Assembly (NCBI RefSeq): GCF_022539405.1
Contig: NZ_CP054394.1
Span: 2,488,501 to 2,552,500, forward strand
Reading direction: 5' to 3'
Source of the DNA: Natranaerofaba carboxydovora
GTDB taxonomy: Bacteria; Bacillota; Natranaerobiia; Natranaerobiales; Natranaerofabaceae
Length of the DNA stretch: 64,000 nucleotides
Part shown: in pieces, positions 31,162-62,111 of the stretch
Layout of the letters: each line of letters opens with the position of its first letter
How positions within the stretch are numbered: the first letter of the stretch is position 1
The notes under the pieces: generated by a model
The model's database searches: none
Told to the model about the DNA's origin: nothing
Seen by the model: the letters and a program-made list of their open reading frames with translations, nothing else
Position numbers and translations under genes: made by a program

Positions 31162-31177
31162 TGCAATTTTTATGCCA
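31162..31177 (-). promoter_or_regulatory. Sigma-54 promoter candidate for the soluble chemoreceptor
   Basis: On the minus strand TGGCATAAAAATTGCA has -24 TGGCA and -12 TTGCA with exact sigma-54 spacing. It lies about 106 bp upstream of ATG 31056. Confidence 0.75.
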
Positions 31178-31179
31178 AA

Positions 31180-31222
31180 ATAAAAAGAAGACCCTATCCA
31201 TCCATATATTTCAGGGTCTTCT
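31180..31222 (-). terminator. thiC terminator
   Basis: AGAAGACCCT ... AGGGTCTTCT followed by TTTTTATTTT on the minus strand. Its T-tract runs into the sigma-54 site. Confidence 0.85.
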
Positions 31223-31320
31223 ATAATTTAATTTATATCCAATTCCAAAATTCAAGTATCAAAATTTTTAACATTGTTTAAATATTGTTTAAATAATGAA
31301 CAATATTGTCTGATTCGAAT

Positions 31321-32676: not shown

Positions 32677-32737
32677 CACTCTCCTATTTGAATTGTTTGT
32701 TCAAATGCATACCACAAGTTATCTGCTCGTGGCATAG

Positions 32738-33000: not shown

Positions 33001-33036
33001 AATCCTAGCTATTCGTTAGTATGTATGCTAAACAAA

Positions 33037-33156: not shown

Positions 33157-33163
33157 CTATTAA

Positions 33164-33324: not shown

Positions 33325-34197
33325 CTATTTTGAAGAATTAGCAAGTACTGCCTCTAAGGCTCCACCGGCTACTGCAAGGGCTTTGTCAGAGATTGTATAA
33401 CAGTGGTCTATATTTTTCCTTGGATCAATATCCCCAAGCTTCATGTTTTCTTTTACTCTAAGGCCGTTTTGCAGAAGTCCTCTTATCATCCCATCTATCC
33501 CGGCCTCAACTGGTGTATCATCTACATAACCTACAATTTCGCCTTCTTTTACAATATCTCCTATAATAAGCTTACTTCTAAATTCACCTTTGCAGGGAGC
33601 CCGAAGCAGTCTTTCTGTGGTATATCCATCTATATTCCCCGGCACTCCAGTATTTGGCTTTGCCTGTCCCTCATATATCACCCTACCAAGATAATGGCCT
33701 CTAGAAGTTTCTATCACACAGTCCACATCTTCTCCTGCTTTATAACCAGGTCCAAGGGCTATCACAGTGTTTGCCATATCTTTTGTGATGCCGGTGTTTT
33801 TCTTTGTAATAGTTGCTTCTATTAGTACATCTGGTTTTAGCCCGGTCAAAGATTTTAGCTTAGGATCTATCAGAAGAGGTATTTGACCTCTATCAATTAC
33901 TTGATATACTTCGCCATATATTGAATTATCATACACTGAATCTAAGTCCACCGCATCTGCATCTTTATACGTCGTATCTAGATTTGTGGTTTCTTCATAG
34001 CTGACTTTTTGGCAGGTAATACCTTCTACTTCTGTTATATCATCATATGCCGCCTGGGCAAAAGATACCGTCCTTCTAACTACTGTGGGCCTTTGGGTCT
34101 CAACTAGCACCACCTTCAGTCCGGCCCTAAAAAGCCTGTACGCCACTCCACTAGCAAGGTCTCCCCCGCCTCTTATCAAAATCAACCCATGTGACAT
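33325..34197 (-). CDS. yqeB: YqeB/EF2563-family selenium-dependent molybdenum hydroxylase accessory protein
   Basis: About 290 residues from ATG 34197, 7 bases after AGGTGAG. The N-terminus is a Rossmann-like segment ILIRGGGDLASGVAYRLFRAG, characteristic of YqeB. DALIEATITKKNTGI, VIALGPGYKAGEDVDCVIET, RAPCKGEFRS and the C-terminal AVAGGALEAVL follow. YqeB occurs with XdhC and selenium genes in organisms making the selenium-dependent form of molybdenum hydroxylases; the reaction is not established. It lies next to xdhC and 7 kb from a three-subunit molybdenum hydroxylase. Confidence 0.88.
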   Translation of the reverse strand: MSHGLILIRGGGDLASGVAYRLFRAGLKVVLVETQRPTVVRRTVSFAQAAYDDITEVEGITCQKVSYEETTNLDTTYKDADAVDLDSVYDNSIYGEVYQVIDRGQIPLLIDPKLKSLTGLKPDVLIEATITKKNTGITKDMANTVIALGPGYKAGEDVDCVIETSRGHYLGRVIYEGQAKPNTGVPGNIDGYTTERLLRAPCKGEFRSKLIIGDIVKEGEIVGYVDDTPVEAGIDGMIRGLLQNGLRVKENMKLGDIDPRKNIDHCYTISDKALAVAGGALEAVLANSSK

Positions 34198-34233
34198 TTT
34201 AGTTCTCACCTGCTTTTCTTCTTTTTCCTTTTT

Positions 34234-35028
34234 TTATTCTTTTTCTTCGCCTTTGTATCTAACTTTGATCAGCTGGGCCACTATACTTACTGCAATCTCA
34301 GAAGGTCTATCCCCACCTATATCTAGGCCTATAGGGGCATAGACTTGATCTAGTCTTTCCTGTGGGATTCCTTTTTGCTTTAGGTTATCAAATATTACTT
34401 TTATCTTCCTTTTGCTGCCTATCATCCCGATATACTTGGCATCTTTGTTGATGACTTTTTCTAGAGCTATCTGGTCATGTTTGTGTCCCCTGGTGACAAG
34501 TACTACATAGGTAGCACTGTTTATATTTATCTCTTCAAGGGCTTTTTCGATGTCATCTGCTATTATATTATCCGCATCGGGGAATTTTTCTCTTGAAGCA
34601 AATTCTTTTCTGTCATCTATAACAACCGTTTCAAAATCTAATAGTTTTGTATAGTGGGAGATGCACTGAGAGATATGGCCTGCACCAACTATTACAAGTT
34701 TTGGAGCAGTCAATATAGGCTCAACAAATAAGCTTACTTCGCCGCCACATACCATGCCTAGAGCTTCTGCATCCTTTTCATTTAGATCATAGTGGACAAA
34801 TTTAGCTTCTTTTGTCTCTAATACTTTTTTGGCCTCTTCTATTATCCTTGCCTCAAGAGCACCTCCACCTATCGTGCCTTTTGTGCCACCATCTTCAAAC
34901 ACTATCATTTTGGCCCCTATTCTGGCAGGGGTTGAACCCTTGGAGTGGGTAACAGTAGCCAGGACAGCAGGCTTGTTGTTTTCTAAACAATGATGCAAGT
35001 ACTCAAAGACTACTTTATTATCATCCAA
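34234..35028 (-). CDS. xdhC: XdhC-family molybdenum hydroxylase maturation protein
   Basis: About 264 residues. TTG 35028 is 9 bases after AAGGAG; a GTG at 35049 is in frame but precedes the ribosome site. The XdhC N-terminal domain is seen in PAVLATVTHSKGSTPARIGAKM and GTIGGGALEARII, with MVCGGEVSLFVEP. The C-terminal Rossmann domain has LVIVGAGHISQCI, VIDDRKEFA, VLVTRGHKHDQIALE and YIGMIGSKRKI. XdhC binds the molybdenum cofactor, protects it and helps sulfurate it before insertion. It pairs with YqeB here, pointing to a selenium-requiring variant. Confidence 0.9.
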   Translation of the reverse strand: MDDNKVVFEYLHHCLENNKPAVLATVTHSKGSTPARIGAKMIVFEDGGTKGTIGGGALEARIIEEAKKVLETKEAKFVHYDLNEKDAEALGMVCGGEVSLFVEPILTAPKLVIVGAGHISQCISHYTKLLDFETVVIDDRKEFASREKFPDADNIIADDIEKALEEININSATYVVLVTRGHKHDQIALEKVINKDAKYIGMIGSKRKIKVIFDNLKQKGIPQERLDQVYAPIGLDIGGDRPSEIAVSIVAQLIKVRYKGEEKE

Positions 35029-35094
35029 TTGCAATCGCTCCTTTTTCACATTTCAACTTAATATTATCTTGATATTAATATTACATGCCTTAAG

Positions 35095-35895
35095 CTATTT
35101 TATTATCTCCATTTTGAGATCCAAAGGAGGAGAATCTATAATTTTGTCTTTGATATCAAGGATGTCTATTCCATAGCTAGCATATTTCGATATATCCTTT
35201 ATATTTATACTTCCAGAAAAACCTACTTTTTTGTGGCAACGCATATTAAGTTCATTCAAACAATAAATGACTTTAATTGCATCTTCTACGCTTCCGGTAT
35301 CAACCATCAAGATGTCTGCTCCACCCTCTGATGCTTCTTTTACTTCTTCATATATTTCTTTTATTTCGCCAGTTGTCTGAAAAACTATTTGATAGCCTTT
35401 TTCTTTAAGTGGAGTTACAGATTTAAGAGCAGGGTATATGCCGTCAAAGATTTTGACTAGACTATTATCGACCCATACATAAGGTTTTTTTGATATAGTG
35501 CTAGATATGCCTCCAGTTTCTATAGCATTTTTAAACCTATCTTTTACTTCAATGGGCATCTTCTCCCATGCACTAGATGTTATCTTCACCCTAGAGCTAG
35601 CTTCTAGAGAAGCCTCATACGCCTTAAAAGCAGCACCCGATGGTTTTGATAGGGTAGAAATTATTATTTCTTTAACTTCCATTACAACTGTAGGCTTTGC
35701 AGTAAATGAAACTACAACATCACCTTTTTCTACCTCTTCACCATCTTTTACAAAGTGAGATAATTCTAGGTCCAAATTCTCTAGTTTTTCTTTTATCCCA
35801 TCTGCACCTGCTATCAACCCTTTATTATCTGCTTTTATTTCGGCTTTCACCGTCTCATTTTTTACATTTTCAAAAATGATCTCCCTGACATCCAT
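35095..35895 (-). CDS. NadC/ModD-like protein lacking usual quinolinate-site residues
   Basis: 267 residues from ATG 35895; a longer frame to 35973 lacks a ribosome site, while GGAGG lies 11 bases before this ATG. The fold is that of quinolinate phosphoribosyltransferase: KDGEEVEKGDVVVSF in the N-terminal sandwich, the barrel strands IVFQTTGEIKEIYEEV, GADILMVDTGS, KKVGFSGSINIKDISKYA and the end DSPPLDLKMEI. The regions that hold TRKT and the GG..HR motif in NadC read ITSSAWEKMP and ETGGISSTISKKPY, so catalytic basic residues are missing. ModD, another relative, lies in molybdenum gene clusters. A role in molybdenum hydroxylase maturation is inferred from position. Confidence 0.65.
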   Translation of the reverse strand: MDVREIIFENVKNETVKAEIKADNKGLIAGADGIKEKLENLDLELSHFVKDGEEVEKGDVVVSFTAKPTVVMEVKEIIISTLSKPSGAAFKAYEASLEASSRVKITSSAWEKMPIEVKDRFKNAIETGGISSTISKKPYVWVDNSLVKIFDGIYPALKSVTPLKEKGYQIVFQTTGEIKEIYEEVKEASEGGADILMVDTGSVEDAIKVIYCLNELNMRCHKKVGFSGSINIKDISKYASYGIDILDIKDKIIDSPPLDLKMEIIK

Positions 35896-36108
35896 AAGAT
35901 TAATAACCTCCACTCTAATGCTGTAATAATAGTAACCAAAAATCACATAAGAATCACATATAAGAACTCTCATAATAATTACATAAAAACAATTACTCGA
36001 TATAATTTAAACAATTAAGCCAAAAAACCCTTTAGAAGATTAAAGCTATATTTTTCATTATTTTAGCATTAGAGTTTAATTATGATACTTTTTTATCAAA
36101 CTGTTTTG

Positions 36109-36924
36109 TCATGAAACTGTTTTGTTAATTAGACTAGCAGAATACCCGGCACCAAAGCCGTTATCTATATTTACCACACTAACTCCCGCTGCACAGCTGT
36201 TAAGCATGGTTAGAAGGGCACTTATCCCGCCAAAACTTGCTCCATAACCTACACTTGTGGGACACGCAATGATAGGCGCTTCTACAAGCCCACCTACTAC
36301 ACTTGCAAGGGCACCTTCCATACCTGCAACAACTACTACGACTTTTGCTTCATACAAAAGGTCCTGGTTTGATAATAGCCTGTGAAGCCCTGCCACTCCC
36401 ACGTCATAGAGTTTTTCTACCCTGTTACCCATGATTTTTGCTGTTTCATACGCTTCTTCAGCAACAGGAATATCCGAGGTACCTGCTGCAGTTATTACTA
36501 TCAAGCCTTTATCTTCTTGAGCTTTTTCTTCTTTAACTATATCTTCTTGAACTTTATCTTCATCTTTTTCGTCCAAAGAACCATCCAAAGAACCATCATA
36601 GATAATAGTCTTTGCAAGATCATTGTATCTTACCTCAGGCATCTTTTCTTTTATGGCATGATAAATTTCTTCTGAGGCCCTTGTGGCAAGTACTTTTTTG
36701 TTATTTTGATAAAGCCTCCTAAATATTTCTACCACCTGATCTATTGTCTTTCCTTCGCAGTAAATCACCTCGGGAAAGCCTGTCCTAACGCAGCGGTGAT
36801 GATCAACTTTGGCATATCCAAGGTCTTCAAAATCCAAATTTTTTAAAGCCATAAGAGCTTTTTCGACTTCTGTTTCACCATTTTTTACTTCATTTAGAAG
36901 CTCTTTTAATGATCTCTGATCCAT
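36109..36924 (-). CDS. larB: LarB-like protein (nickel-pincer cofactor, NaAD carboxylase/hydrolase)
   Basis: 271 residues. The N-terminal half contains YAKVDHHRCVRTGFPEVIYCEGK, the LarB hallmark. The C-terminal half is an AIR-carboxylase-like domain (IVITAAGTSDIPVAEEAYE, VAGLHRLLS, VVVAGMEGALASVVGGL, CPTSVGYGASFGGISALLTMLNSCAAGV, VNIDNGFGAGYSA). A repetitive acidic insert (about 128-148) joins the domains. LarB carboxylates nicotinic acid adenine dinucleotide in the first step to the nickel-pincer cofactor. It is divergent from larE, and no larA or larC is present in the window. Confidence 0.88.
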   Translation of the reverse strand: MDQRSLKELLNEVKNGETEVEKALMALKNLDFEDLGYAKVDHHRCVRTGFPEVIYCEGKTIDQVVEIFRRLYQNNKKVLATRASEEIYHAIKEKMPEVRYNDLAKTIIYDGSLDGSLDEKDEDKVQEDIVKEEKAQEDKGLIVITAAGTSDIPVAEEAYETAKIMGNRVEKLYDVGVAGLHRLLSNQDLLYEAKVVVVVAGMEGALASVVGGLVEAPIIACPTSVGYGASFGGISALLTMLNSCAAGVSVVNIDNGFGAGYSASLINKTVS

Positions 36925-37113
36925 ACCAAATCACCTCCAACTCTATTTTGTTCAAAGTGTATTTTCAATAATATCACTATTAGCACTATGAAAGCAATTT
37001 TATCAATAGATAAACAAAACAATATCTGCTATTTAGTCAAAAACTGCTTAAGGTGTTTGTTAATCTATGATAAAATACTCCTATATTGCCTTAGGTTAAA
37101 GGAGGATATAAGG

Positions 37114-37917
37114 TTGGCTGACAAATCATTAAACAAAAAATTCTCACATCTTAAAAATATCATCAAAGATATGACAGACGGCGCTGTTGTTGCTTTTTCT
37201 GGGGGTGTTGACAGCACTTTTCTACTTAAGGTCTGTTTTGATGTATTAGGTACTGGCAAAGTTCTTGCCGTAACCTCTGCTTCAGAGACCATCCCTGAAA
37301 GAGAGCTTAATAAAGCAAAAGACCTGTGCGAAAAAATAGGCAGTAAACATAAGATCATCTATACCAATGAGCTACAGGTAGATGGTTTTAGAAAAAATCC
37401 AAAGGATAGATGTTTCTACTGCAAAAATGAGCTGTTTGAGAGCTTGTGGCAGATAGCTAAAGAAAATAACTTATCTCATGTATTGGACGGCTCTAATTAT
37501 GATGATATAGGTGATCACAGGCCTGGCATGAAAGCTGCCAAAAAACATGGCGTCAAAAGCCCCCTTCAGGAGGCTATGTTAACTAAAGATGATATTAGAA
37601 AAATGTCAAAAACACTGGATCTTCCCACCTGGAACAAGCCCGCCATGGCATGTCTTTCTTCAAGGTTTCCCTACGGGGAAGAGATAACAAAAGATAAGAT
37701 AACCTCAGTCGAAAAAGCAGAAGACTTATTAGAAAGCCTTGGTTACAAGCAGTTCAGGGTTCGCCATCACGACAGTATAGCCAGAATAGAAATTTTATCT
37801 TCTGAATTTGACAAAATCCTTGAAGACAAGGACAAAATAACAAAAAGCCTAAAAGAACTTGGGTTCAAATTTGTCACTTTGGACATGGAGGGCTTTCGCT
37901 CCGGTAGTATGAACTGA
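37114..37917 (+). CDS. larE: LarE-like ATP-dependent sacrificial sulfur transferase
   Basis: 267 residues from TTG 37114, 8 bases after GGAGG; the upstream in-frame ATG adds 42 residues without family character. The PP-loop is AFSGGVDSTFLLKV. FRKNPKDRCFYCKNELF carries the cysteines of the LarE family, followed by LDGSNYDDIGDHRPGMKA, SPLQEAMLTKDDIRKMSK and ACLSSRFPYGE. LarE adenylates its substrate and donates sulfur to build the pincer thiocarboxylates. Divergent from larB. The cofactor's user (a lactate-racemase-type enzyme) is not in the window. Confidence 0.9.
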   Translation: MADKSLNKKFSHLKNIIKDMTDGAVVAFSGGVDSTFLLKVCFDVLGTGKVLAVTSASETIPERELNKAKDLCEKIGSKHKIIYTNELQVDGFRKNPKDRCFYCKNELFESLWQIAKENNLSHVLDGSNYDDIGDHRPGMKAAKKHGVKSPLQEAMLTKDDIRKMSKTLDLPTWNKPAMACLSSRFPYGEEITKDKITSVEKAEDLLESLGYKQFRVRHHDSIARIEILSSEFDKILEDKDKITKSLKELGFKFVTLDMEGFRSGSMN

Positions 37918-37934: not shown

Positions 37935-38735
37935 TTATACTTCTAAGATCCCTTTTCTGTGGGCTTTTAGATAATCTTTACAGAACTTGTCTTTGTCTAA
38001 TAATGATTTGGCTGAAGTAAACTGTGCCATCATCTTTTTGTCTGTAGGGTCAAGGATTACCCCATCAAGGCCTACCGTCATACACATTATCATAAAGGTC
38101 TGATTTAGAATCTTTCTGTTTGGAAGGCCGTAGGACACATTACTTAGCCCACACATAGTATGAACTTCATCGTAATATTCATGGATGCTAGTAATAGTCT
38201 CAAGTACTGAAGGGCCATTCTTGGTGTCTGTGCTAATAGGCTGAATTAGAGGGTCAATGTAGATGTCATCTTCTTTAACCCCTTCTTCTTTTAGGCCATC
38301 GATAACTGCCTTGGCACAGTCAAATCTTTTTTTAGCATCTTTTGGTATTCCGTCATCATCCATACAAAGAGAAATAATTTTACAGCCGTATTTGGTTACT
38401 AAAGGCTTTATTGCATCATAGCGTTCTTTTTCACCGCTTATTGAATTAACCATAGCCTGTCCGTTCTTGTGATGCTTTAGCCCTGCTTCTATTGCATTTG
38501 GACTTGGGCTGTCAATGCAGAGGGGGTTGTCAACAGCAGTTTGAATCTCTTTTACCATCCACTCCATAATTTCAGGTTCATCATTGATAAAGGTACCACA
38601 GTTTACATCGATGTAATCTGCCCCACTCTCTGCCTGTTCTTTTGCAAGGTTTTTAATGAACTCTGCGTCTCTTTTTTCCACAGCTTCTTTGACGGATTTT
38701 CTACTGGTGTTAATCTTTTCACCAACTATAAGCAC
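37935..38735 (-). CDS. DHPS-type methylcorrinoid:tetrahydrofolate methyltransferase (MtgA-like)
   Basis: 266 residues with GTG start 9 bases after GGAG. The pterin-binding barrel shows LIVGEKINTSRKSV, SGADYIDVNCGT, PLCIDSPSPNAI, AMVNSISGEKE, IYIDPLIQPISTD and CGLSNVSYGLPNR. The NCGT and LSNVSYGLP forms resemble the methyltransferase partner of MttB-type glycine betaine systems (MtgA). It probably takes methyl from the corrinoid protein at 49117 to tetrahydrofolate. A sigma-54 promoter lies 160 bp upstream, as for the corrinoid/MttB operon, which supports that pairing over the GntR-linked island. Confidence 0.88.
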   Translation of the reverse strand: MLIVGEKINTSRKSVKEAVEKRDAEFIKNLAKEQAESGADYIDVNCGTFINDEPEIMEWMVKEIQTAVDNPLCIDSPSPNAIEAGLKHHKNGQAMVNSISGEKERYDAIKPLVTKYGCKIISLCMDDDGIPKDAKKRFDCAKAVIDGLKEEGVKEDDIYIDPLIQPISTDTKNGPSVLETITSIHEYYDEVHTMCGLSNVSYGLPNRKILNQTFMIMCMTVGLDGVILDPTDKKMMAQFTSAKSLLDKDKFCKDYLKAHRKGILEV

Positions 38736-39119
38736 ATCAATCCACTCCTTTTTGAATTTTAAGTTTTTCTTTTCATTTTAAGTTTTTTTAATTAAAGAAA
38801 ATTATTTACCCACTGTCAGCAAATTCCTATTTTCTTAAGTTTTGCTTATCAGTTTTGCTTTTCAGTTACTAAAACTTTTTAATCATCTTAATTTTATGCA
38901 ATATTTATGCCAAAAATATTTTAATGCAAAGGTTGGCATTATGATTATTTTTTTGCTAACCGAGGGATGATTTGATGGTTATATATTTTGTTTTAAAATT
39001 TCACAGATGTTAAAAATTTGAACGGTTAAAAATAAAGAAAAAACTGAAAACTCCTATTTGAAACTTTCTAAATGTGATAAAATGAACTTAGGAGAAAGAA
39101 TAAGAAGGGGGGAGGACCA
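38736..39119. other. Divergent intergenic region with sigma-54 promoter
   Basis: It holds the sigma-54 site at 38897-38912 and an inverted repeat GGTTGGCA ... TTGCTAACC (38931-38961) upstream of it, a position where an enhancer-binding protein could bind. A forward promoter for the radical SAM gene probably lies near 39060-39100. No ORF is seen. Confidence 0.45.
38897..38912 (-). promoter_or_regulatory. Sigma-54 promoter candidate for the MtgA-like gene
   Basis: Minus strand TGGCATAAATATTGCA: -24 TGGCA, -12 TTGCA, exact spacing. About 160 bp upstream of the GTG start. Confidence 0.75.
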
Positions 39120-44719: not shown

Positions 44720-44784
44720 TAAATACTCTCCCCTCATCTGTTATTGCTTATCATCAGATTAAATCGAACTAAAAATTTGTAGAA

Positions 44785-45826: not shown

Positions 45827-45842
45827 TGCAATTTATATGCCA
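45827..45842 (-). promoter_or_regulatory. Sigma-54 promoter candidate for the molybdenum hydroxylase operon
   Basis: Minus strand TGGCATATAAATTGCA, exact -24/-12 spacing, 165 bp upstream of the FAD-subunit start. Much of the 45663-46050 gap is AT-rich leader and upstream sequence, with a TCTAATATA direct repeat near 45716 and 45730. Confidence 0.78.
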
Positions 45843-45965
45843 ATTTATCAAATACCACTGTTATCAACATTTTTAATTTAACAAAGGCGTTCTCGTTAAT
45901 TAATTAAACAAGATTGTTTTCTTTTTTAACAACATGTCGATATAATGACAATATAATTTACAAAA

Positions 45966-49779: not shown

Positions 49780-49861
49780 TTTTTTTCCTCCTTTAGTTAA
49801 GTTAATTTGAATTTTCAACCCACTAGGCCCGCTATAAATCTTTTAGTTGTTTAATAATACA

Positions 49862-49877
49862 TGCAATTTGTATGCCA
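49862..49877 (-). promoter_or_regulatory. Sigma-54 promoter candidate for the corrinoid-mttB-BCCT operon
   Basis: Minus strand TGGCATACAAATTGCA, exact -24/-12 spacing, 83 bp upstream of ATG 49779. The remaining gap to 50067 holds AT-rich sequence with TTGTTTAGCATGCGTTGTTC near 50009, a possible activator region. Confidence 0.78.
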
Positions 49878-50067
49878 AAACTTCAAAAGCTAGAGTTAAA
49901 TTTAAATTAAATTGTAAGAAAAGTTTTTCAAATCTGACGAAAAGGCGATTTGATAAAGATACAAAGTATCAATAATTACATAATTTAGTACGACCAATAA
50001 CTTTTAACATTGCTTGTTTAGCATGCGTTGTTCAATTTTTTAACGCCTGTTATTATTTTTGACAATT

Positions 50068-51350: not shown

Positions 51351-51388
51351 TTTACAATTCACTCCTTTTTAATTTTGTAAATCTTTCT

Positions 51389-52114: not shown

Positions 52115-52149
52115 ATTCTTTTCCCTCCCTCTCATTCAATGCTCACTAA

Positions 52150-53051: not shown

Positions 53052-53393
53052 CTACTTATAATATCTCAACTCTAAAGTCATACATCCTTCAGGAATCTCA
53101 TAAGGACCGTGCTTCATTCCCGGAGGTCTACAAGCATACATTCCTTCTGTATAAACTTCTTTTTTGTTAAGGTCTTTTAGCGAACCTTTTAGAATATAAA
53201 CTTCTTCCCAAAAGTCGTGTACTAATAAGTCACTTGTAACTAGTCCCGGAGGAAATTTAAGAAGTCTGCTGTAGTCTCCTGTTTCTGGGTCATGGCTTAA
53301 GATCTTTTCGATAATGCCTTCTTCTGCACCCTCAACCTGTCTCCAGCCAATACTGATGTCGTGATCAAAAAATTCTAATTCTGGTTTAGCCAT
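53052..53393 (-). CDS. Small cupin-fold protein
   Basis: 113 residues with a cupin barrel: FPPGLVTSDLLVHDFWEEVYILKGSLKD holds the histidine/glutamate positions of motif 1, and YACRPPGMKHGPYEIPEGC those of motif 2. Small cupins of this sort can be metal-dependent isomerases, hydrolases or binding proteins. No specific function is assigned. It lies between the oxidoreductase gamma gene and the amidase, with short gaps. Confidence 0.75.
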   Translation of the reverse strand: MAKPELEFFDHDISIGWRQVEGAEEGIIEKILSHDPETGDYSRLLKFPPGLVTSDLLVHDFWEEVYILKGSLKDLNKKEVYTEGMYACRPPGMKHGPYEIPEGCMTLELRYYK

Positions 53394-53423: not shown

Positions 53424-53969
53424 TTAATTTATTGTTAATTTAACTAATTCCATTCCTAGTTCCACTGCTTTTCTATTCACATCCATTTTCTTGGCAAATC
53501 TACCTTCTAGCGCTTTCTCTAGGGATTCTTTTTTGACAATTCCGCTTTTGGCAATTAAGGCACCAAGGCTCATAACATTTAATGGTAGATTAAGGTTATT
53601 TGCTTTTTCATCTCTTACTTTTTTGGCTAGAGGTAGTCCAAGAACATTTTCTCCTTCATAGGTGTCTTTAACAAAACTGCTATCATAAACTATCAGGCAA
53701 TCTTCTGGTACTTTTTTATAGTATTTTTTCAGCGCTTCTTCTGTTAGGGCCAAAACCAGGTTTGGCTCGTCTACGGCTGGGTACTGGATTTCGTTATCAT
53801 CAACAACTACCTCGGATTTGGTAAAGCCTCCTCTTGAAGCAATTCCGTATGAAGCAGTTTGGGCTGCTTTTTTGCCGTCTTCAATAGCTGCTTCGCCAAG
53901 AAGCACTCCGGCCACAACAAGGCCCTGTCCTCCTTCACCTCCAATTACCACTTGCCAGTTTTGTCCCAT
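53424..53969 (-). CDS. korC: 2-oxoacid:ferredoxin oxidoreductase, gamma subunit
   Basis: 181 residues of the pyruvate/ketoisovalerate oxidoreductase gamma family: VVIGGEGGQGLVVAGVLLGEAA, TASYGIASRGGFTKSEVVVDD, YPAVDEPNLVLALTEEAL and NVMSLGALIAKSG. The glycine-rich start is diagnostic. It forms a complex with the alpha, beta and ferredoxin-like delta subunits encoded just upstream. Gene order delta-alpha-beta-gamma is typical of KorDABC/VorDABC. Confidence 0.9.
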   Translation of the reverse strand: MGQNWQVVIGGEGGQGLVVAGVLLGEAAIEDGKKAAQTASYGIASRGGFTKSEVVVDDNEIQYPAVDEPNLVLALTEEALKKYYKKVPEDCLIVYDSSFVKDTYEGENVLGLPLAKKVRDEKANNLNLPLNVMSLGALIAKSGIVKKESLEKALEGRFAKKMDVNRKAVELGMELVKLTIN

Positions 53970-53981
53970 TTACCATCACCT

Positions 53982-54785
53982 CTAATTAATAGATTCTTTC
54001 ACTTTTTTGTATTTGGTATTGAAATCTTCTTCTTCAACTTGATGAAGCTTGCCAATCGGGAAGCACTCTTTTTTCTTGCTTTCATCAAGCTCGTCGTATT
54101 TACTCTTTTTGACACCCTGATCTTTCATCATTTTCATCATGTCCACAGAATTTGCCCTGTAGTTATATCTACCATAATAGGTAGGGCATAGAGATGTTAC
54201 TTCCACCATAGAAAATCCTTTGTGATCAACAGCTTCTGCGATTAAATTGTCCATCTGTTTAACATGGTAAGGTGTAGAGCGACCTACATAAGTTGCACCT
54301 GAAGTTATAGCTAAGTCGCAGATATCTATGCTCTTTTCTGCTGTTCCATATTTTGATGTGGAGGTTATGCTGCCCTCAGGCGAGGTAGATGAATACTGAC
54401 CTCCAGTCATACCATAGTTAAAGTTATTTGTAACGATAGCTGTCATGTCAATATTTCTTCTTGCAGTATGGAGGAAGTGGTTACCTCCAATAGTAGTTCC
54501 ATCACCATCTCCCATTAAGACAAGGACTTTAAGCTCTTCTTTTGGTATTTTTATCCCTGTCGCAAAGGATAGGGCTCGCCCATGTGTACCATGAAATACG
54601 TGAGTTCTAAAATAATCATCACTTTTTCCCCAGCAGCCGATTCCTGTTACCACGACTGTTTTTTCCGGGTCAAGTTTTAGCGTGTCCATAGCTCTTGCTA
54701 TGGAAGCCAGGGTTATCCCGTGACTACAGCCTTTACACCACATCAAAGGTAGTTTTTCTTCTCTTATATAATCTTTATAACTCAT
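53982..54785 (-). CDS. korB: 2-oxoacid:ferredoxin oxidoreductase, beta (TPP-binding) subunit
   Basis: 267 residues. MWCKGCSHGITLASIARAM is the conserved start. VTGIGCWGKSDDYF, THGRALSFATGIK, VLVLMGDGDGTTIGGNHFLH and AIVTNNFNYGMTGGQYSSTSP include the TPP site with the GDG...N motif. The HGRA and GGQYSSTSP patterns are those of 2-oxoglutarate/2-oxoisovalerate-type enzymes. One base separates its start from the alpha stop. Thiamin pyrophosphate required here could come from the thiC route. Confidence 0.92.
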   Translation of the reverse strand: MSYKDYIREEKLPLMWCKGCSHGITLASIARAMDTLKLDPEKTVVVTGIGCWGKSDDYFRTHVFHGTHGRALSFATGIKIPKEELKVLVLMGDGDGTTIGGNHFLHTARRNIDMTAIVTNNFNYGMTGGQYSSTSPEGSITSTSKYGTAEKSIDICDLAITSGATYVGRSTPYHVKQMDNLIAEAVDHKGFSMVEVTSLCPTYYGRYNYRANSVDMMKMMKDQGVKKSKYDELDESKKKECFPIGKLHQVEEEDFNTKYKKVKESIN

Positions 54786-54786
54786 T

Positions 54787-55917
54787 TTAGGAAGGAACCT
54801 CCTTCAACTTCTCTAGGATCTCACCGGGTAAGATATCTTCACCTGAAAATTTGTTTATCCTTAAGACATCTTTATCCCTAAACACCCTTTCAACTTCTAA
54901 GGCAAGCTGACCCATGTTTAGCTCTACAACAACCAGGTCACTGCAGTCTTTAACTGCTTCTTTTATCTTATCTTCTGGAAATGGCCATAGCGTCTTTAAC
55001 TGAACAAGTCCTATTTTTTGGCCTTCTTTTCTTGCTTTGTCAACTGCCTGAAGAGAGCTTCTAGCAGAGATCCCAAAGGATATTATTGCAGTCTCGGCAT
55101 CGTCCATATGGTATGTCTCAATCATACCGATATCATCGATGTTTTTTTCTATTTTGTCCCATAGTCTTTGAACAACTTTTTGTGAGTTCTCAGGGGACAT
55201 GTCCAAGAAACCTTCTTCCCCGTGCATCGAAGAGTTAACCCTCTGTAGATGTGGGTCTCCATAATTAGATATTGGTGGTATCATATCTGTATCTGGTTTA
55301 TAAGGCTTATACTCCTCAGGGGAGCAAGTTGGTTTCTTTCTATCAACTATTTCAAGTTCTTCTGGTTTTTTGATCTCTACGTCCTCTCTTAGATGACCAA
55401 CTGTTTTGTCAGTTAGTACGATTACTGGAGTTCTGTATTTTTCCGATAAGTTAAATGCCTCAACTGTCAGATCAAAACATTCCTGAACTGATGACGGGGC
55501 AAGTACGATAATAGAATGATCCCCGTGAGTCCCCCAGCGGGTCTGCATCACATCACCCTGAGCTTGCTTTGTCGCAAGTCCTGTACTTGGGCCCCCTCTT
55601 GATACGTTAATAATTACGCAGGGTACTTCCCCTATTACTGCAACGCCAAGGTTTTCCTGCATTAGCGAAAATCCTGGACCACTTGTTGCTGTAAAGGATT
55701 TGGCCCCTGACATTGAGGCACCGATTACTGCAGCAATACTAGCGATCTCGTCTTCTAACTGAAGATAACAGCCGTCTACTTTTGGAAGCTTAGCTGCAGC
55801 AACTGCCGCTATCTCTGAGGATGGGGTTATTGGATACCCTCCAAAAAATCTGCCACCTGCAGCTATTGCTCCTTCTGCACAAGCTTCGTTTCCTTGCAAA
55901 AATTTAACTTCACCCAA
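54787..55917 (-). CDS. korA: 2-oxoacid:ferredoxin oxidoreductase, alpha subunit
   Basis: 376 residues with TTG start after GGAGGG. GNEACAEGAIAAGGRFFGGYPITPSSEIAA is the standard N-terminus. SGAKSFTATSGPGFSLMQENLG, INVSRGGPSTGLATKQAQGDVMQTRWGTHGDH and the pyrimidine-binding domain follow. The C-terminal transketolase-like domain has AIISFGISARSS and KTLWPFPEDKI. Together with beta, gamma and delta it oxidises a 2-oxo acid with CoA to acyl-CoA and reduced ferredoxin. The sequence favours a Kor/Vor type rather than pyruvate, but the exact substrate is not certain. Confidence 0.92.
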   Translation of the reverse strand: MGEVKFLQGNEACAEGAIAAGGRFFGGYPITPSSEIAAVAAAKLPKVDGCYLQLEDEIASIAAVIGASMSGAKSFTATSGPGFSLMQENLGVAVIGEVPCVIINVSRGGPSTGLATKQAQGDVMQTRWGTHGDHSIIVLAPSSVQECFDLTVEAFNLSEKYRTPVIVLTDKTVGHLREDVEIKKPEELEIVDRKKPTCSPEEYKPYKPDTDMIPPISNYGDPHLQRVNSSMHGEEGFLDMSPENSQKVVQRLWDKIEKNIDDIGMIETYHMDDAETAIISFGISARSSLQAVDKARKEGQKIGLVQLKTLWPFPEDKIKEAVKDCSDLVVVELNMGQLALEVERVFRDKDVLRINKFSGEDILPGEILEKLKEVPS

Positions 55918-56171: not shown

Positions 56172-57389
56172 TTATTCTTCTAACCACTCTGACGGATCAT
56201 ACTTTGGCAGTTCTTTTCTTACGTTACCGTCTTTTCTGTTGCCTAGAGCATAGTCGGCCTGCATAAGCTGCTGTATCTCCCTGGTTCCTTCGTAGATAAC
56301 AGCTCCTTTGCAGTTTCTGTAATATCTTTCTACGGGGTATTCGTTAGAGAATCCATAAGCTCCGTGAAGCTGTACCGCATCTCCGGAAGCTGCTTCTGAA
56401 GCATCGCAGGCTACCCATTTGGCAAGAGAAACTTCTTTTGTATGTCTTAGTCCTTCATTCTTCATCCAGCCTACTTTTAGATAAAGAAGCCTTGATGTCT
56501 CGTAGTCTCTTACCATCTTGGCAATCATCTGCTTAACAAGCTGATAATCTCCGATTGGATTCCCAAAGGTTTCTCTTTCTTTACTGTATTTTAGACAAGC
56601 ATCTCTACAGGCTCTTACAAGACCTGTTGCTCCTGCTGCAACTGTGTATCTTCCGTTATCAAGAGCACTCATGGCAATTTTGAAACCTTCTCCTTCTTCG
56701 CCCATCATGTTCTCTGCCGGAACTTTTACATCGTTCATAGCTATCCAACCAGTGTTACCTGCTCTTACTCCAAGTTTACCGTGGATTGTGCCTGTTTCTA
56801 TTCCCATGTCTCTTGATACAATGAAGCAGCTTATTCCTTTGTAATCTTTTTGTTTTTTCTTTTCCATGTCGGTCCAGGCAAAGATTAAGAAGTGGTCTGC
56901 AACGTCTGCTAGTGAGATCCACATTTTTTCACCATTTAGGACATAATGATCTCCTTCTTTTTTGGCAGTAGTCTGAAGCCCTCTTACGTCACTTCCTGCA
57001 TTTGGTTCTGTAAGTCCAAAGGTAGCGATTTTTTCGCCTCTTGCCTGTGGCGCTAGATATTTTTGTTTTTGTTCTTCGTTTGCCCAGGTAAGCATTGTCA
57101 TGCTGTTAAGTCCAACATGAACAGAAAGAATAACCCTAAGAGATGTGTCTACAGCTTCAAGCTCCTCACATGCAAGTCCAAGGCTGACGTAGTCAAAACC
57201 TGCTCCCCCGTATTTTTCAGGAATACACACTCCTAGTAGATCTAGCTCCTTCATCTTTTCTAAAATTGAATCATCGAATTGTTGCTTCTCATCTAGTTCT
57301 GCTATTTTTGGTTCCACTTCCTTTGTCGCAAAATCCTTTACTGTTTTAGCTAGCATTTCTTGATCTTCATTTAATGTAAAACCCAACAT
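56172..57389 (-). CDS. Acyl-CoA dehydrogenase
   Basis: 405 residues, with all family landmarks: FGLTEPNAGSDVRGLQTTA, WISLADVADHFLIFAWT, GVRAGNTGWIAMNDVKVP, RYTVAAGATGLVRACRDAC, FGNPIGDYQLVKQMIAKM, LHGAYGFSNEYPVERYYRN and the catalytic glutamate in AVIYEGTREIQQLMQADYALG. The shape is that of short-chain or glutaryl-CoA-type dehydrogenases. No electron-transfer flavoprotein genes are adjacent. First gene of a long operon behind a sigma-54 promoter, so acyl-CoA oxidation is a late step of the inferred pathway. Confidence 0.93.
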   Translation of the reverse strand: MLGFTLNEDQEMLAKTVKDFATKEVEPKIAELDEKQQFDDSILEKMKELDLLGVCIPEKYGGAGFDYVSLGLACEELEAVDTSLRVILSVHVGLNSMTMLTWANEEQKQKYLAPQARGEKIATFGLTEPNAGSDVRGLQTTAKKEGDHYVLNGEKMWISLADVADHFLIFAWTDMEKKKQKDYKGISCFIVSRDMGIETGTIHGKLGVRAGNTGWIAMNDVKVPAENMMGEEGEGFKIAMSALDNGRYTVAAGATGLVRACRDACLKYSKERETFGNPIGDYQLVKQMIAKMVRDYETSRLLYLKVGWMKNEGLRHTKEVSLAKWVACDASEAASGDAVQLHGAYGFSNEYPVERYYRNCKGAVIYEGTREIQQLMQADYALGNRKDGNVRKELPKYDPSEWLEE

Positions 57390-57465: not shown

Positions 57466-57481
57466 TGCAATTTTCATACCA
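57466..57481 (-). promoter_or_regulatory. Sigma-54 promoter candidate for the acyl-CoA dehydrogenase operon
   Basis: Minus strand TGGTATGAAAATTGCA. The -24 GG and -12 TTGCA are at exact spacing, with one departure (TGGTA for TGGCA). It is 77 bp upstream of ATG 57389. Confidence 0.7.
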
Positions 57482-57549: not shown

Positions 57550-57595
57550 AAATTTATATTTTTCATTATTATAATTTTCGTTCAATTTCTTAACG

Positions 57596-59563
57596 TCAAC
57601 TGTTTAGTTTTTTCCAAAGGGTTGTTCTACTAACTCCAAGCAGCGAGGCTAGCTCCTCTTTACTGCTGGTATGGTGCTTAGCCACCTGCCTTATTATTTC
57701 TTCTTCCATTTCCTTTAGCGTGCCAAGTTTAACTGTTATCCTGGTATTGTTATCATCGTCAAAATCTAATCCGTCCTCATCTTCGCAAGAACTCATTTCG
57801 TAATCGTCTTGATACAACTCCTCAATTAGTTCATCCAAATTTCTAAATGATTCAAGCTCATCCTGGTCTTTACTTAAAAGGACATACTTTTCTACAAAGT
57901 TTTTAAGTTCTCTTATATTTCCAAGCCATTTAAAACTCTTTAATCTGTTTAGATGTTTTGCCTTAATCTCCTCAACAGTTACATTTTCTTGTTCACAGAT
58001 TTCTTTGACAAATAAGTTTATCAGATAAGGTATATCTTCAGGCCTCTTTCTAAGGGGAGGGATGTTAAGATTTAGAACATTTAAACGATAGAAGAGATCA
58101 TTTCTGAACTCTTTGTTTTTGACCCTCTCTTTTATATTGTCATTACAGGCTGCAACCACTCTTACATCCACTGGTATTATCTCTTCTCCGCCAACTCTTC
58201 TAACAACTTTTTCCTCAAGTACTCTTAATAATCTTGCCTGAAGAGAAGGTGGAGTTTCTGTTATTTCATCAAGAAAAATAGTACCATTATGAGCAAGCTC
58301 CAACAGGCCTAGTTTTCCGCCTTTTTTGGCCCCTGTGAAAGCACCGTCCTCATACCCAAAGAGCTCACTCTCAAGTAAATTGTCCGGCAGGGTAGCGCAG
58401 TTTATAGCTACAAATGGACCATTTTTTCTTTTGCTCTCATTATGAATGCTTTGGGCGAACATTTCTTTACCGGTACCGCTCTCGCCCGTTATTAGGATAG
58501 TTGCATCATTTTTACTGTATCTTTTGGCCTTTTCAATGACTTTTTCCATTTTGGGCGAATTAGTATGAATTTGCGAAAACTCAAATCTAGCAACAAATCC
58601 CTTACTGTGAAGCTTTTTCCTAATTTTGTTTTCTAGTTTTTGTATTCTAGAGATCTCAGTAAAGTTAATAAAGATGCCTTCGTTCTGCGTTTCAAATCTT
58701 ACCGGTATTCTATTAATCAGGCATTTTTTGTTTTTTAATGTTTGTACATCATTTATAACTATATCGCCATTACCTAGAATTTTGTTAAAGACATTCTTAT
58801 CTTTTTTTAGCTCTTCGATATCCCTTCCTATTATCGGTTCACTCGCAGGTATTTTTAAAAGCTCTTTTCCTTTTTCATTTATATAAGTTACTTTGCCGGT
58901 GTTTTCGACTTCCATTACTCCACCATAGGAGTGGGTAAGAATTTTCTTAAACCTTTCGTTTCGTATCAGATCATTTTTCCTGACTCTCATGAGCTCATCA
59001 GCTCTTTTGAAGGCTTCGTACACTGCTTCCCAGTTAGAATAAACCATGGCACCTTTCATGCCTTTTTTGTTGGCCTTCTCAAGAATACACATACCCGAGG
59101 CAACCACAACTTCAGTCCCGTCTTCAAAAGCTTTGTCTATCTGGCTATCCAACTCATCTTGGTCTTTATAATAATAGAATTCAAGGTTTTTATTTTTTAG
59201 GTTTATTATATTTTTCATGTTATCAAAATCATATCTATTTTTTCTTTTGAAGTATTCGAAATATGCAATATTATCACCGAGGCTTTTGGCTTCGTTTAGA
59301 GCCTGTAAGATATCAAAGGAATTAATCTCTACAGGTATCATAGGCACGTCCACTTTACTTTTAATTAAAGCTCCTGTAGCGCCTCTGCTGATAATTACAG
59401 TTTTTTTATCATTTTCGTATCTTTTTGCAATTTCTACTCCTTCATCTAAGACCGCATTATAAACCTCCACTTCTTTATTTTCTTCTCTGGCTATTTTGCG
59501 CGCAAGGTCAGCAAAGTTTTTGTAGGGCGAAATTACGACTAATTTTTCATTTTGACTTTCCAT
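57596..59563 (-). CDS. Sigma-54-dependent transcriptional activator with PrpR-type sensory domain
   Basis: 655 residues. Residues about 1-195 match the PrpR_N sensor domain (VVISPYKNFADLARKIA, TVIISRGATGALIKSK, VVVASGMCILEKANKKG). A PAS domain follows at about 215-320 (GVMEVENTGKVTYINEKGKELL). The AAA+ domain at about 340-575 has Walker A ITGESGTGKEM, the sigma-54 contact loop DGAFTGAKKG, Walker B GTIFLDEI and RNDLFYRLNVLNL. The C-terminus is a Fis-type helix-turn-helix (ELASLLGVSRTTLWKKL). PrpR_N proteins sense acids or CoA-related metabolites. As the only sigma-54 activator here, lying among six matching promoters, it is the obvious regulator. Confidence 0.95.
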   Translation of the reverse strand: MESQNEKLVVISPYKNFADLARKIAREENKEVEVYNAVLDEGVEIAKRYENDKKTVIISRGATGALIKSKVDVPMIPVEINSFDILQALNEAKSLGDNIAYFEYFKRKNRYDFDNMKNIINLKNKNLEFYYYKDQDELDSQIDKAFEDGTEVVVASGMCILEKANKKGMKGAMVYSNWEAVYEAFKRADELMRVRKNDLIRNERFKKILTHSYGGVMEVENTGKVTYINEKGKELLKIPASEPIIGRDIEELKKDKNVFNKILGNGDIVINDVQTLKNKKCLINRIPVRFETQNEGIFINFTEISRIQKLENKIRKKLHSKGFVARFEFSQIHTNSPKMEKVIEKAKRYSKNDATILITGESGTGKEMFAQSIHNESKRKNGPFVAINCATLPDNLLESELFGYEDGAFTGAKKGGKLGLLELAHNGTIFLDEITETPPSLQARLLRVLEEKVVRRVGGEEIIPVDVRVVAACNDNIKERVKNKEFRNDLFYRLNVLNLNIPPLRKRPEDIPYLINLFVKEICEQENVTVEEIKAKHLNRLKSFKWLGNIRELKNFVEKYVLLSKDQDELESFRNLDELIEELYQDDYEMSSCEDEDGLDFDDDNNTRITVKLGTLKEMEEEIIRQVAKHHTSSKEELASLLGVSRTTLWKKLNS

Positions 59564-59879
59564 TATTTTTCACCCTTTCTTTTCTTAATACTATCAGTTG
59601 TAATAGTTGTAGCGATTATAACAATTATATCACTATTATACAATACTTTTGTTGATAAGTCCCTGGAAAATATCGTTTTATGTTAAATTACAAAACTATG
59701 TATGTTTAAGTTTTGAACGTACATTGTTCATATAAGTTTTAAATTATGATTCCGGTGCAAAAAGTCTATTCACCTAACTTTGTTTCATTTGACTTTTTGC
59801 ACCAGAATCAATTATTAATTTGTCTCACATGCCAATAGTAGTTATTAAGATGGTATGTGAGGCAAATATTGAAATCATA
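59564..59879. other. Region upstream of the activator, with two large hairpins
   Basis: It holds GATTCCGGTGCAAAAAGT with a distant complement (about 59747-59810), and CTCACATGCC with GGTATGTGAG (about 59823-59861). The latter probably ends the acyl-CoA synthetase transcript. Close to the activator start lies AGTTGTAATAGTTGTAG with a partial inverse ATAACAATTA, a possible autoregulatory site. Confidence 0.45.
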
Positions 59880-62021
59880 CTATCTCTTTATGAGTAGCGC
59901 GTCTAAGGCTTTAACCCCTTTTCCTTCGTCTAGTACTACAAGGGGGTTGATGTCTAGTTCTTCTATATATTCTTCATACAATGAGGCAAGTTTACTTACT
60001 TTAACTATCTGATCTGCCAAGGCATCAATATCTTTTTTGTTCTTACCTCTTGTTCCTTCAAGGATTTTAAAGCTCTTAATCTCCTTTATCATCTCCAAAG
60101 CTTCAGAGTGGGTAAGGGGTGCAAATCTAAATGCCACATCTTTTAGTACTTCTACATATACTCCCCCTAGACCAAACATTACCATAGGACCAAATTTCGG
60201 GTCTCTTTTGACCCCTATAATAACCTCTTCTTTTTCTCCTGTTTCCATCTCTTCTAACAATACTCCGTTGACTTTTGCATCAGGGGAGTTTTCTTTCACT
60301 GCTTTCATTATTTCGTTGTAGGCTTTTTCTACTTCTTCAGGCGAATCAAGGTTTAGCTTAACTGCCCCTATATCACTCTTGTGCAGTACATCCGGGGAGT
60401 CGATCTTCATAACCTGAGGAGACTTAAGTGATGAAGATAGCTTTATGGCTTCATCTTTGTCACGGCATAAGCCACCTTCTGGAACTGTCAGGCCACAGGT
60501 TTTTAGAATCTTTTTCCCTTCTGACTCACCCAAGTTTTTGTCACTGTTGTTGTTTGAAAAAGCCTTTTTGAGGGATTCTTTGATATCAGGGTCAAAGTCA
60601 TTAGATTCATCTTTTTTGGCATTTAATATTTTGTTTTTGGCTTTGCTGTATTTCATCAGTTTGGATAGGGATTCAAGACCCCTCACAGGGCATTTGTACC
60701 AGGGAACATCTCCCTCATCTAGCACTTCAAAGTTATCAGACATCAATCTATCTCCCGCTGGCCAGGTAACTGTTAACGGTTTATCTATTTTGTCAAAGAC
60801 CTCTACAGTATCTTTTGCCATCTGTTTACCTGCTTCACCATAGATCATACTGATAACTACAATGATGCCATCTATCTCTGGTGCGTCTGCCAGGGAATTT
60901 AAGACTCCTTTAAAGTTTTCTGCTTCATTAATCACCTGGGCTGTTACATCAACAGGGTTAAGGGCTGAGCCAAAAGCGGGGATATATTTTTCTACTTCTT
61001 CTTGAGCTTTGTCCCCAAGAGAAGGAACATTGATATCTTTGTCGCTAGCCCTATCGGCAAGAAGGATACCTGCACCTCCGGAAGTAGTAACTATAGCTAA
61101 ATTATCGCCTTTTGGCATTTTGTTAATCTTCTCAAGTAAATATGCAATATCTATCATCTCTTCCACACTATATACTCTTATAACTCCTGTTTGTTTGAAA
61201 AGGGTATCATAAGAAGTATCTGAGCTAACCATTGAGGCAGTATGAGAAGCTGCAGCTTTTTGGCCAACTTCTGAGCTTCCAACTTTAAGGCATATTACAG
61301 GCTTATTTGCCTTAAGTGCCCGCTCCAAAAGTTCTCTAAAGCGCTTTCCATCATTTACTTCTTCAAGATAAGTCATGATTGCACTGGTGTTTTCATCTTC
61401 AATGAAATATTCTAGAAAGTCCAGAGATTCAAGGTCTGCTTCGTTACCAGTGCTAACAACTGCACTAAAACCAACACCTTTTTCCTGGGCTGAATTAAAG
61501 ATTGAATAACCAAGGGCCCCACTCTGGGTAACAAAACCAATATTGCCCTGTTTTAGCGGTCTTATCTCCATAGATGCACTAAAAGTAGAAGTATTGCCTG
61601 TTCTAAGATTCACAACACCCTGACAGTTAGGACCCAAAATACCCATCCCAGATTCTTTGGCGAGCTCCTGAATTTGATCTTGAATCTTTTTACCTTCTTC
61701 TCCCGCTTCAGAAAATCCAGAACTATAAACGATGGCATGTTTTACTCCTTTTTGGACACATTCCTGAAGTACCGGCAAAACAAGCTTATAGTTAACTATA
61801 ATAAGAGCTACGTCTACCTGATCTTCAATATCGCTTATACTTTTATAGCATTTAACCCCGTGCATCTCATCATATTTAGGATTAACCGGATATACCTTTC
61901 CCTCAAAGTTGTGTTCCTTAAAGTATCTTAAAGGTCTTCCTCCAATGGAATCTAAGTTTTGCGAAGCACCTACAACAGCAATAGATTTTGGATTAAATAA
62001 AGCTGTTAAATCCTTTTTCAT
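59880..62021 (-). CDS. ADP-forming acetate/acyl-CoA synthetase (fused alpha-beta)
   Basis: 713 residues, the size of the fused form. Domain order: CoA-binding (1-130; FNPKSIAVVGASQNLDSIGG), two succinyl-CoA-ligase-like domains with FVTQSGALGYSIF, GNEADLESLDFLEYF and KAAASHTASMVSS (the phosphohistidine loop), then an ATP-grasp part from about 480 (LKSPQVMKIDSPDVLHKSDIGAVKLNL, PMVMFGLGGVYVEVLKDVAFRFAPL). It converts acyl-CoA, ADP and phosphate to acid, CoA and ATP, the ATP-yielding last step of fermentation in many anaerobes. Its sigma-54 promoter ties it to the catabolic regulon. Confidence 0.93.
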   Translation of the reverse strand: MKKDLTALFNPKSIAVVGASQNLDSIGGRPLRYFKEHNFEGKVYPVNPKYDEMHGVKCYKSISDIEDQVDVALIIVNYKLVLPVLQECVQKGVKHAIVYSSGFSEAGEEGKKIQDQIQELAKESGMGILGPNCQGVVNLRTGNTSTFSASMEIRPLKQGNIGFVTQSGALGYSIFNSAQEKGVGFSAVVSTGNEADLESLDFLEYFIEDENTSAIMTYLEEVNDGKRFRELLERALKANKPVICLKVGSSEVGQKAAASHTASMVSSDTSYDTLFKQTGVIRVYSVEEMIDIAYLLEKINKMPKGDNLAIVTTSGGAGILLADRASDKDINVPSLGDKAQEEVEKYIPAFGSALNPVDVTAQVINEAENFKGVLNSLADAPEIDGIIVVISMIYGEAGKQMAKDTVEVFDKIDKPLTVTWPAGDRLMSDNFEVLDEGDVPWYKCPVRGLESLSKLMKYSKAKNKILNAKKDESNDFDPDIKESLKKAFSNNNSDKNLGESEGKKILKTCGLTVPEGGLCRDKDEAIKLSSSLKSPQVMKIDSPDVLHKSDIGAVKLNLDSPEEVEKAYNEIMKAVKENSPDAKVNGVLLEEMETGEKEEVIIGVKRDPKFGPMVMFGLGGVYVEVLKDVAFRFAPLTHSEALEMIKEIKSFKILEGTRGKNKKDIDALADQIVKVSKLASLYEEYIEELDINPLVVLDEGKGVKALDALLIKR

Positions 62022-62095
62022 AAAACAAAACCTCCTATTTTGTGTTTAATTTGTTAACATATCTGTGGTTTATTTAGTACTACATGTAATATAGA

Positions 62096-62111
62096 TGCAA
62101 TTTTTGTGCCA
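62096..62111 (-). promoter_or_regulatory. Sigma-54 promoter candidate for the ADP-forming synthetase
   Basis: Minus strand TGGCACAAAAATTGCA, a near-ideal match with the consensus TGGCAC and exact spacing, 75 bp upstream of ATG 62021. Confidence 0.8.

Follow-up and report, generated by a model that had tools for sequence, protein, structure and literature searches.

The 64,000-nucleotide stretch of the Natranaerofaba carboxydovora genome analyzed here (contig NZ_CP054394.1, positions 2,488,501 to 2,552,500; referred to below as the window) carries six sigma-54 promoter sites in front of genes as different as a chemoreceptor and an acyl-CoA synthetase, with the gene of a PrpR-type sigma-54 activator (57596–59563, minus strand) in their midst, which raises the question of whether these operons form one regulon and what such a regulon would be for. 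A preliminary description had argued for one physiological programme on the grounds that a rare promoter type is shared. The conclusion is supported by three independent lines of evidence, but its original basis is not sufficient, since ten other activators in this genome also work through sigma-54 promoters; it is a palindrome, and not the promoter type, that ties the six together. It appears quite probable that the operons constitute a regulon of the 57596–59563 activator with a general catabolic function, the latter suggested by gene content. Membership is well supported for five operons and probable for the sixth, at 62096.

All six sites proposed previously, of the form TGGYA-N6-TTGCA on the minus strand with identical spacing, are present as exact matches: 31162–31177 before the chemoreceptor gene, 38897–38912 before the gene of an MtgA-like methyltransferase, 45827–45842 before a molybdenum hydroxylase operon, 49862–49877 before a corrinoid protein/MttB/BCCT operon, 57466–57481 before an operon for an acyl-CoA dehydrogenase (ACAD), a 2-oxoacid:ferredoxin oxidoreductase (KOR), a cupin, an amidase, a DUF2848 protein and a PreA-like protein, and 62096–62111 before the gene of an ADP-forming acyl-CoA synthetase. 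Each shows GG at −24 and GC at −12 at the fixed spacing, close to a gene start, and each is intergenic and oriented into a minus-strand gene. The distance of 75–165 bp to the gene start given earlier holds for most of them, with measured values, in the same order, of 106, 162, ∼165, 44–81, 77, and 75 bp. At 45827 the mechanical start of the open reading frame (ORF) is 248 bp away because the downstream gene has a frameshift in its N-terminal part, and a TTG start with a Shine-Dalgarno sequence is found ∼165 bp away.

The window contains no other exact match, with 0.27 expected and a maximum of two in 100 shuffles. Genome-wide (a single contig of 3.26 Mb), 33 exact sites were counted, compared with ∼12 that we estimate from base composition, and 20 of these lie inside ORFs and are probably chance matches. 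These intragenic matches would favor a reading of the six sites as chance, or as AT-rich sequence that resembles sigma-54 promoters without function, but this is barely credible when all six are intergenic and correctly oriented at 44–165 bp from a start, far above the number expected in the window, in a genome with 11 true bacterial enhancer-binding proteins (bEBPs). The remaining 13 sites, intergenic, upstream of a gene and correctly oriented, comprise the six of the window and seven elsewhere. The seven all have one of the ten other bEBPs no more than a few kb away. Five of them are found in front of genes for two Fe-alcohol dehydrogenases, an aldehyde dehydrogenase, a [2Fe-2S] subunit and an HMG-CoA reductase; the genes behind the other two have no Pfam match. 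A high frequency of matches before unrelated genes, which the preliminary description had named as an observation that would count against it, is thus not found. The reversed pattern gave no match in the genome, a value not taken as an estimate of chance, since reversal creates the rare CpG. Elsewhere, two identical near-consensus sites (TGGCACGATATTTGCG; G000 1327943 and 1334131, L085) lie 6.2 kb apart next to another bEBP, both preceding ORFs with identical start sequence, and are probably a recent tandem duplication.

The 655-amino acid activator combines PrpR_N, AAA+ and Fis-type helix-turn-helix domains (PF06506, PF00158, PF02954), and the presence of both the AAA+ sigma-54 interaction domain and the Fis helix-turn-helix identifies it as a bEBP, the only one in the window, as had been claimed. 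Its recognition helix is LLGVSRTTLWKKL. With 402.6 bits against a cut-off of 499.2 for the PrpR equivalog TIGR02329, it is PrpR-like and not PrpR by that measure. A search of the genome contigs with the activator returned only distant AAA+ matches. The activator would bind the palindrome (C)GTTNAA-N3-TTNAAC(G) 60–160 bp upstream of the sigma-54 promoters and, using ATP, activate no fewer than five of the operons, and probably all six, the trigger being a substrate or intermediate detected by the PrpR_N sensor region.

The first line of evidence for a single regulon is this palindrome itself, which was found de novo and confirmed by leave-one-out scoring. It was the best family in a search upstream of the six promoters, with a composition-weighted score of 11.1, whereas 200 dinucleotide shuffles reached at most 10.3; this type of score replaced a plain mismatch-scored search, which was dominated by AT-rich words and gave nothing significant. 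Copies without mismatch are present at 39009–39023 and 50030–50044, respectively ∼105 bp upstream of promoter 38897 and ∼160 bp upstream of promoter 49862. A copy with one mismatch lies at 57580–57594, ∼105 bp upstream of promoter 57466, and copies with two mismatches lie at 31287–31301 (∼115 bp upstream of promoter 31162, which has a weaker second copy at 31258–31272) and 45895–45909 (∼60 bp upstream of promoter 45827). All promoters but the one at 62096 thus have the palindrome upstream. A 17-bp matrix was built from the copies at 31258, 31287, 39009, 45895, 50030, and 57580 and scanned over 324 kb, made up of the window plus a further 260 kb of the same genome. The top six scores were the sites of the five promoters and an untrained site at 59704–59718, ∼140 bp before the start of the activator gene (score 15.3, sixth among the 17-mers of the window). 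When left out in turn, four promoters and the better copy at 31162 kept zero or one background match in the 260 kb. Palindrome 59704, which has no sigma-54 site beside it, may reflect autoregulation of the activator gene. A similar palindrome is seen 144 bp before the PrpR-type gene of another genome (G039, L097:2371).

The second line comes from orthologues of the activator, ∼40–44% identical, in other families. In two distant genomes, G006 and G036, the palindrome recurs 79 and 133 bp upstream of the sigma-54 promoter adjacent to an orthologue whose recognition helix (SRTTLWKKL or SRTTVWKK) is almost unchanged (two seen, 0.12 expected), and it is absent upstream of the sigma-54 promoters of orthologues with SKTTLWRR, SRSTLWRK, or SRTTLWRK helices. 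These orthologues sit at other operons, so the comparison tests the assignment of the DNA-binding site and not the regulon.

The third line is the recurrence of the same two gene blocks in genome G321, which belongs to another class, under one shared but different palindrome and a different activator. A bEBP with SpoVT_C-like and PAS domains and no PrpR_N is followed there by a sigma-54 site and then by MttB (53% identical), BCCT (55%), a corrinoid protein and an MtgA-like enzyme. Some 10 kb further on, a second sigma-54 site precedes a DASS symporter (56%), an acetate/butyrate-type kinase, a phosphotransacylase (PTA/PTB), KOR alpha-beta-gamma, three hydroxylase subunits, PreA (66%), the cupin (59%), the amidase (60%), and DUF2848 (54%), and then a BenE-type transporter, XdhC and YqeB. 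In this genome, a stretch of 80 kb contains five copies of the palindrome ATCCCATTATGGGAT at up to three mismatches, every one of them upstream of one of three sigma-54 promoters, among which are those of both catabolic operons, so that the two blocks appear to be coordinated in G321 by a non-orthologous activator with another enhancer. A group of G321 genes at L119:3930-6857 (a pfkB kinase, a small protein that is CBS-domain-like by eye, and a Na+/H+ exchanger) shares the promoter type and activator-binding palindrome of the catabolic operons. Parts of the gene set are found in three further genomes: G034 and G125 carry the KOR/PreA/amidase/cupin part, to which G034 adds the hydroxylase and a bEBP and G125 adds DUF2848, and in G299 MttB-BCCT-corrinoid-MtgA genes stand beside a BenE-like transporter. 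In a sample of 399 genomes of the phylum, the cupin is present in only five and this MttB subfamily in three, indicating a rare and patchy trait.

Several observations weigh against a single catabolic regulon. The plain consensus with up to one mismatch has 64 matches genome-wide, too many for the motif by itself to define the regulon or to be decisive, and the second 31162 copy, when left out of training, scores no better than background. Among the genomes sampled, no orthologue of the activator controls the same genes; those in G004, G006, G036, G039, and G014 are not beside this gene set. The ring-degrading block of G034 has no adjacent MttB/BCCT, and in G299 MttB/BCCT lie at a contig end with the ring block not in reach and no cupin match in the genome. 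The gene of the hydroxylase FAD subunit is frameshifted, and the majority of equivalog cut-offs are not reached by the enzymes of these operons. Lastly, the palindrome at promoter 62096 (62044–62058) lies downstream, in the leader, which makes this operon the weakest member. Another sigma-54 promoter, that of an Fe-alcohol dehydrogenase, shows the same odd arrangement, with a copy (G000 1038159, L090:11160) 47 bp downstream of it.

Some of these points lend themselves to other readings. Two or more neighboring programmes, for instance generic betaine demethylation and a separate N-heterocycle module, might respond to different inducing signals, each through sigma-54, which would agree with the separate occurrence of the blocks in the DNA seen of G034 and G299 and with the presence of other activators in the genome. 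This is improbable, however, as the two blocks have a palindrome in common here, and in G321 they share another. A regulon of five operons, with the synthetase promoter at 62096 under another activator, is somewhat unlikely but deserves more weight, given that no palindrome is found upstream of that promoter and the sole match is in the leader. Yet this leader match, untrained and with a score of 13.3, ranks within the top nine 17-mers of the 324 kb, and the synthetase fits the last step of the pathway, for which G321 uses a kinase and a phosphotransacylase. A single regulon, with the synthetase probably included, is therefore preferred.

The gene identities given in the preliminary description hold, with the omission of a 113-amino acid cupin in the ACAD operon; the genes of the six operons are all on the minus strand. 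The chemoreceptor (30214–31056) has a methyl-accepting chemotaxis protein (MCP) signaling domain (PF00015), and the MtgA-like methyl-corrinoid:tetrahydrofolate methyltransferase (37935–38735; PF00809) reaches 368.7 bits with NF005719 (cut-off 259). The operon behind promoter 49862 encodes a corrinoid protein (49117–49818; PF02310/PF02607), its cognate MttB-superfamily methyltransferase (47699–49117; PF06253), and a BCCT betaine-type transporter (46051–47667; PF02028). The methyltransferase is 53–56% identical to its counterparts in G321 and G299, and does not qualify as pyrrolysine (Pyl)-dependent MttB proper, with 352 against 525 for TIGR02369 and an uninterrupted 472-amino acid frame without an in-frame TAG or any other in-frame stop. 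Together with PF02310 and PF00809 in the neighborhood, its PF06253 domain identifies it as a non-Pyl quaternary amine methyltransferase of the superfamily, and the nearest PDB entry, at a moderate match, is the glycine betaine methyltransferase 9yce (E 1e-63). The MtgC cut-off was not reached in the equivalog comparison.

The molybdenum hydroxylase has large (41903–44209; PF20256/PF02738/PF01315), [2Fe-2S] (44213–44737; PF01799) and FAD (44785–45660) subunits, and its operon probably ends with a DASS anion symporter (40351–41730; TIGR00785 282.9 bits, cut-off 198.6) that is 56% identical to the first gene of the G321 ring operon. Nicotinate dehydrogenase 3hrd is among the PDB matches of the hydroxylase. 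YqeB, at 339 against a cut-off of 220, and XdhC are nearby, and the hydroxylase itself reaches no selenium-specific equivalog cut-off. The N-terminal part of the FAD subunit, starting at ∼45660, is out of frame: the TTG-started frame reaches a TTA AAA AAG run after which the remainder of the gene lies in the −1 frame. A AAA AAG is a classic −1 slippery heptamer. RNA folding just downstream is unremarkable (z −1.6) and the homologues in G321 and G034 are intact; the change of frame could be an indel in the A-run, a sequencing error, or programmed frameshifting.

In the ACAD operon, the PreA-like FMN/4Fe-4S ring reductase (50121–51362) matches the pyrimidine-reducing half of dihydropyrimidine dehydrogenase and is 59–66% identical in G125, G034 and G321, with 288.9 bits against the cut-off of 335 for the NAD-dependent dihydropyrimidine dehydrogenase equivalog NF006183, which it thus does not reach. 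The DUF2848 protein (51389–52135; PF11010) has, according to its predicted model (pLDDT 86), the fold of the FAH superfamily, the model matching 26 FAH-family chains in Foldseek at E 1e-9 to 5e-4 and TM ∼0.5–0.6. The nearest solved members are Cg1458 (1e-9), YisK (2e-8), and 4-oxalocrotonate decarboxylase, all of which act on 2-oxo acids. The omega-amidase-like amidase of the nitrilase superfamily (52263–53036; PF00795) has Nit2/Nit3 homologues among its closest relatives (PDB matches 3p8k, 1f89, and 2w1v Nit2), and enzymes of this type act on 2-oxo-acid amides. The cupin (53052–53393; PF12973), of the metal-binding type with conserved His/Glu residues, is 58–77% identical in three other genomes and among the best-conserved proteins of the locus; its model (pLDDT 64) is too poor for a structure search. 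The three KOR subunits (53424–55917; PF01558, PF02775, PF01855) include an alpha subunit with 540.8 bits for NF006412 (cut-off 411), plus beta and gamma, which identifies the enzyme as a KOR. The ACAD (56172–57389; PF00441) remains below cut-off for NF042972 (339 bits) and for the glutaryl-CoA dehydrogenase NF045552 (324 bits); a search for an Arg typical of glutaryl-CoA dehydrogenase (R85) yielded no glutaryl-CoA dehydrogenase for comparison, so that this residue is no more than a lead. The ADP-forming acyl-CoA synthetase (59880–62021; PF13607, PF13549) matches 8wzu at E 1e-137.

Two further clusters in the window are without exact sigma-54 sites. A maturation cluster adjoining the regulon at 33325–37917 contains YqeB, XdhC, a NadC/ModD-like phosphoribosyltransferase and LarB, with LarE on the other strand, LarB and LarE being genes of the nickel-pincer cofactor. 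On the left of the window, at 5285–19836, a second methyl-transfer block, assigned mostly from sequence starts, contains corrinoid proteins, two UroD-like proteins, a pterin methyltransferase, a corrinoid-activation-like protein and a BenE-like transporter (14990–16210).

From the gene content, the cell would move toward a quaternary N-methyl compound by means of the MCP and take it up through the BCCT transporter, after which the MttB-type enzyme and the corrinoid protein would demethylate it at nitrogen and the MtgA-like enzyme pass the methyl group to tetrahydrofolate. The resulting N-heteroaromatic acid would be hydroxylated by the (seleno)molybdenum hydroxylase, its ring reduced by the PreA-like enzyme and opened by the cupin and DUF2848 to a 2-oxo-acid amide, which the amidase would hydrolyze; KOR would oxidize the product to an acyl-CoA, the synthetase would yield ATP, and the ACAD would carry out further oxidation. 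A quaternary N-methyl substrate is suggested by BCCT and the MttB-type enzyme, an N-heteroaromatic ring by the hydroxylase and the PreA-like enzyme, and 2-oxo-acid intermediates by the FAH-fold protein, the Nit2/Nit3-like amidase and KOR, which consumes a 2-oxo acid. An aromatic acid would also agree with the BenE-type gene of G321 and the BenE-like gene of G299.

The favored route would lead from homarine (N-methylpicolinate), a marine betaine, through picolinate, 6-hydroxypicolinate, 2-oxoadipamate and 2-oxoadipate to glutaryl-CoA, and homarine, favored on chemical grounds, is a possible, rather than a probable, substrate. Because picolinate carries its carboxylate beside the ring nitrogen, hydroxylation at position 6 followed by reduction of one double bond and hydrolysis would give 2-oxoadipamate, and as nicotinate gives no 2-oxo acid, homarine is preferred over trigonelline (N-methylnicotinate). 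With trigonelline, the same regulon and demethylation would lead to nicotinate, 6-hydroxynicotinate and tetrahydro-6-oxonicotinate, as in nicotinate fermentation, which would suit the match of the hydroxylase to nicotinate dehydrogenase 3hrd, the PreA-like reduction and the adjoining YqeB, an equivalog for selenium-dependent molybdenum hydroxylases. This is nevertheless unlikely, as ring opening would then give 2-formylglutaramate, leaving the amidase, the FAH-fold protein and KOR with no obvious role, and the operons show neither the enamidase nor the 2-methyleneglutarate mutase known from nicotinate fermentation. With homarine as substrate, the locus might tentatively be read as a complete and undescribed anaerobic fermentation, with the methyl group entering the acetogenic C1 pathway and the ring yielding glutaryl-CoA and ATP, shared with a distant and differently controlled bacterium.

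Literature searches on DUF2848, on anaerobic pathways of homarine and picolinate, and on 6-hydroxypicolinate returned nothing on point and no such gene set, and we know of no described gene set for the anaerobic breakdown of an N-methylated aromatic betaine. The pathway is probably new. If so, a regulator, a DNA site and a full gene set could be named for this process, roles could be assigned to DUF2848 and the small cupin, and the same catabolic genes would be under sigma-54 control in two lineages through unrelated activators and different enhancer sites.

With PrpR, the activator of propionate catabolism, the regulator shares the PrpR_N sensor, AAA+ domain and Fis-type helix-turn-helix, but it falls below the PrpR equivalog cut-off and is without propionate genes. 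Aerobic picolinate degradation (PicA-type) and nicotinate fermentation (Eubacterium barkeri) both begin with a molybdenum hydroxylase acting next to the ring nitrogen, an entry step in common with the pathway proposed here, which has no oxygenase and whose downstream steps differ from both. A stop-free MttB homologue, a corrinoid protein, an MtgA-like enzyme and BCCT are likewise common to demethylation of the Mtg/Mtc type, as in Eubacterium limosum MtyB (PMC8604678), the difference here being the coupling to ring degradation, a combination that appears undescribed in the literature searched. Among clostridial sigma-54 regulons (PMC6615313), a local bEBP is also found, for example DioR (yqeB, xdhC, pbuX, and related operons), which similarly involves molybdenum hydroxylase maturation genes; upstream activating sequences are there mostly 100–250 bp upstream of −24/−12 promoters, whereas some of those here are at <100 bp. 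None of the 39 regulons in the table of that study combines corrinoid demethylation with a molybdenum hydroxylase/PreA/KOR pathway. The kind of regulation itself is known: of 263 clostridial enhancer-binding proteins, 65% have a single operon under their control and the others between two and six (PMC6615313), and with six operons the regulon described here is at the upper end for clostridial sigma-54 activators.

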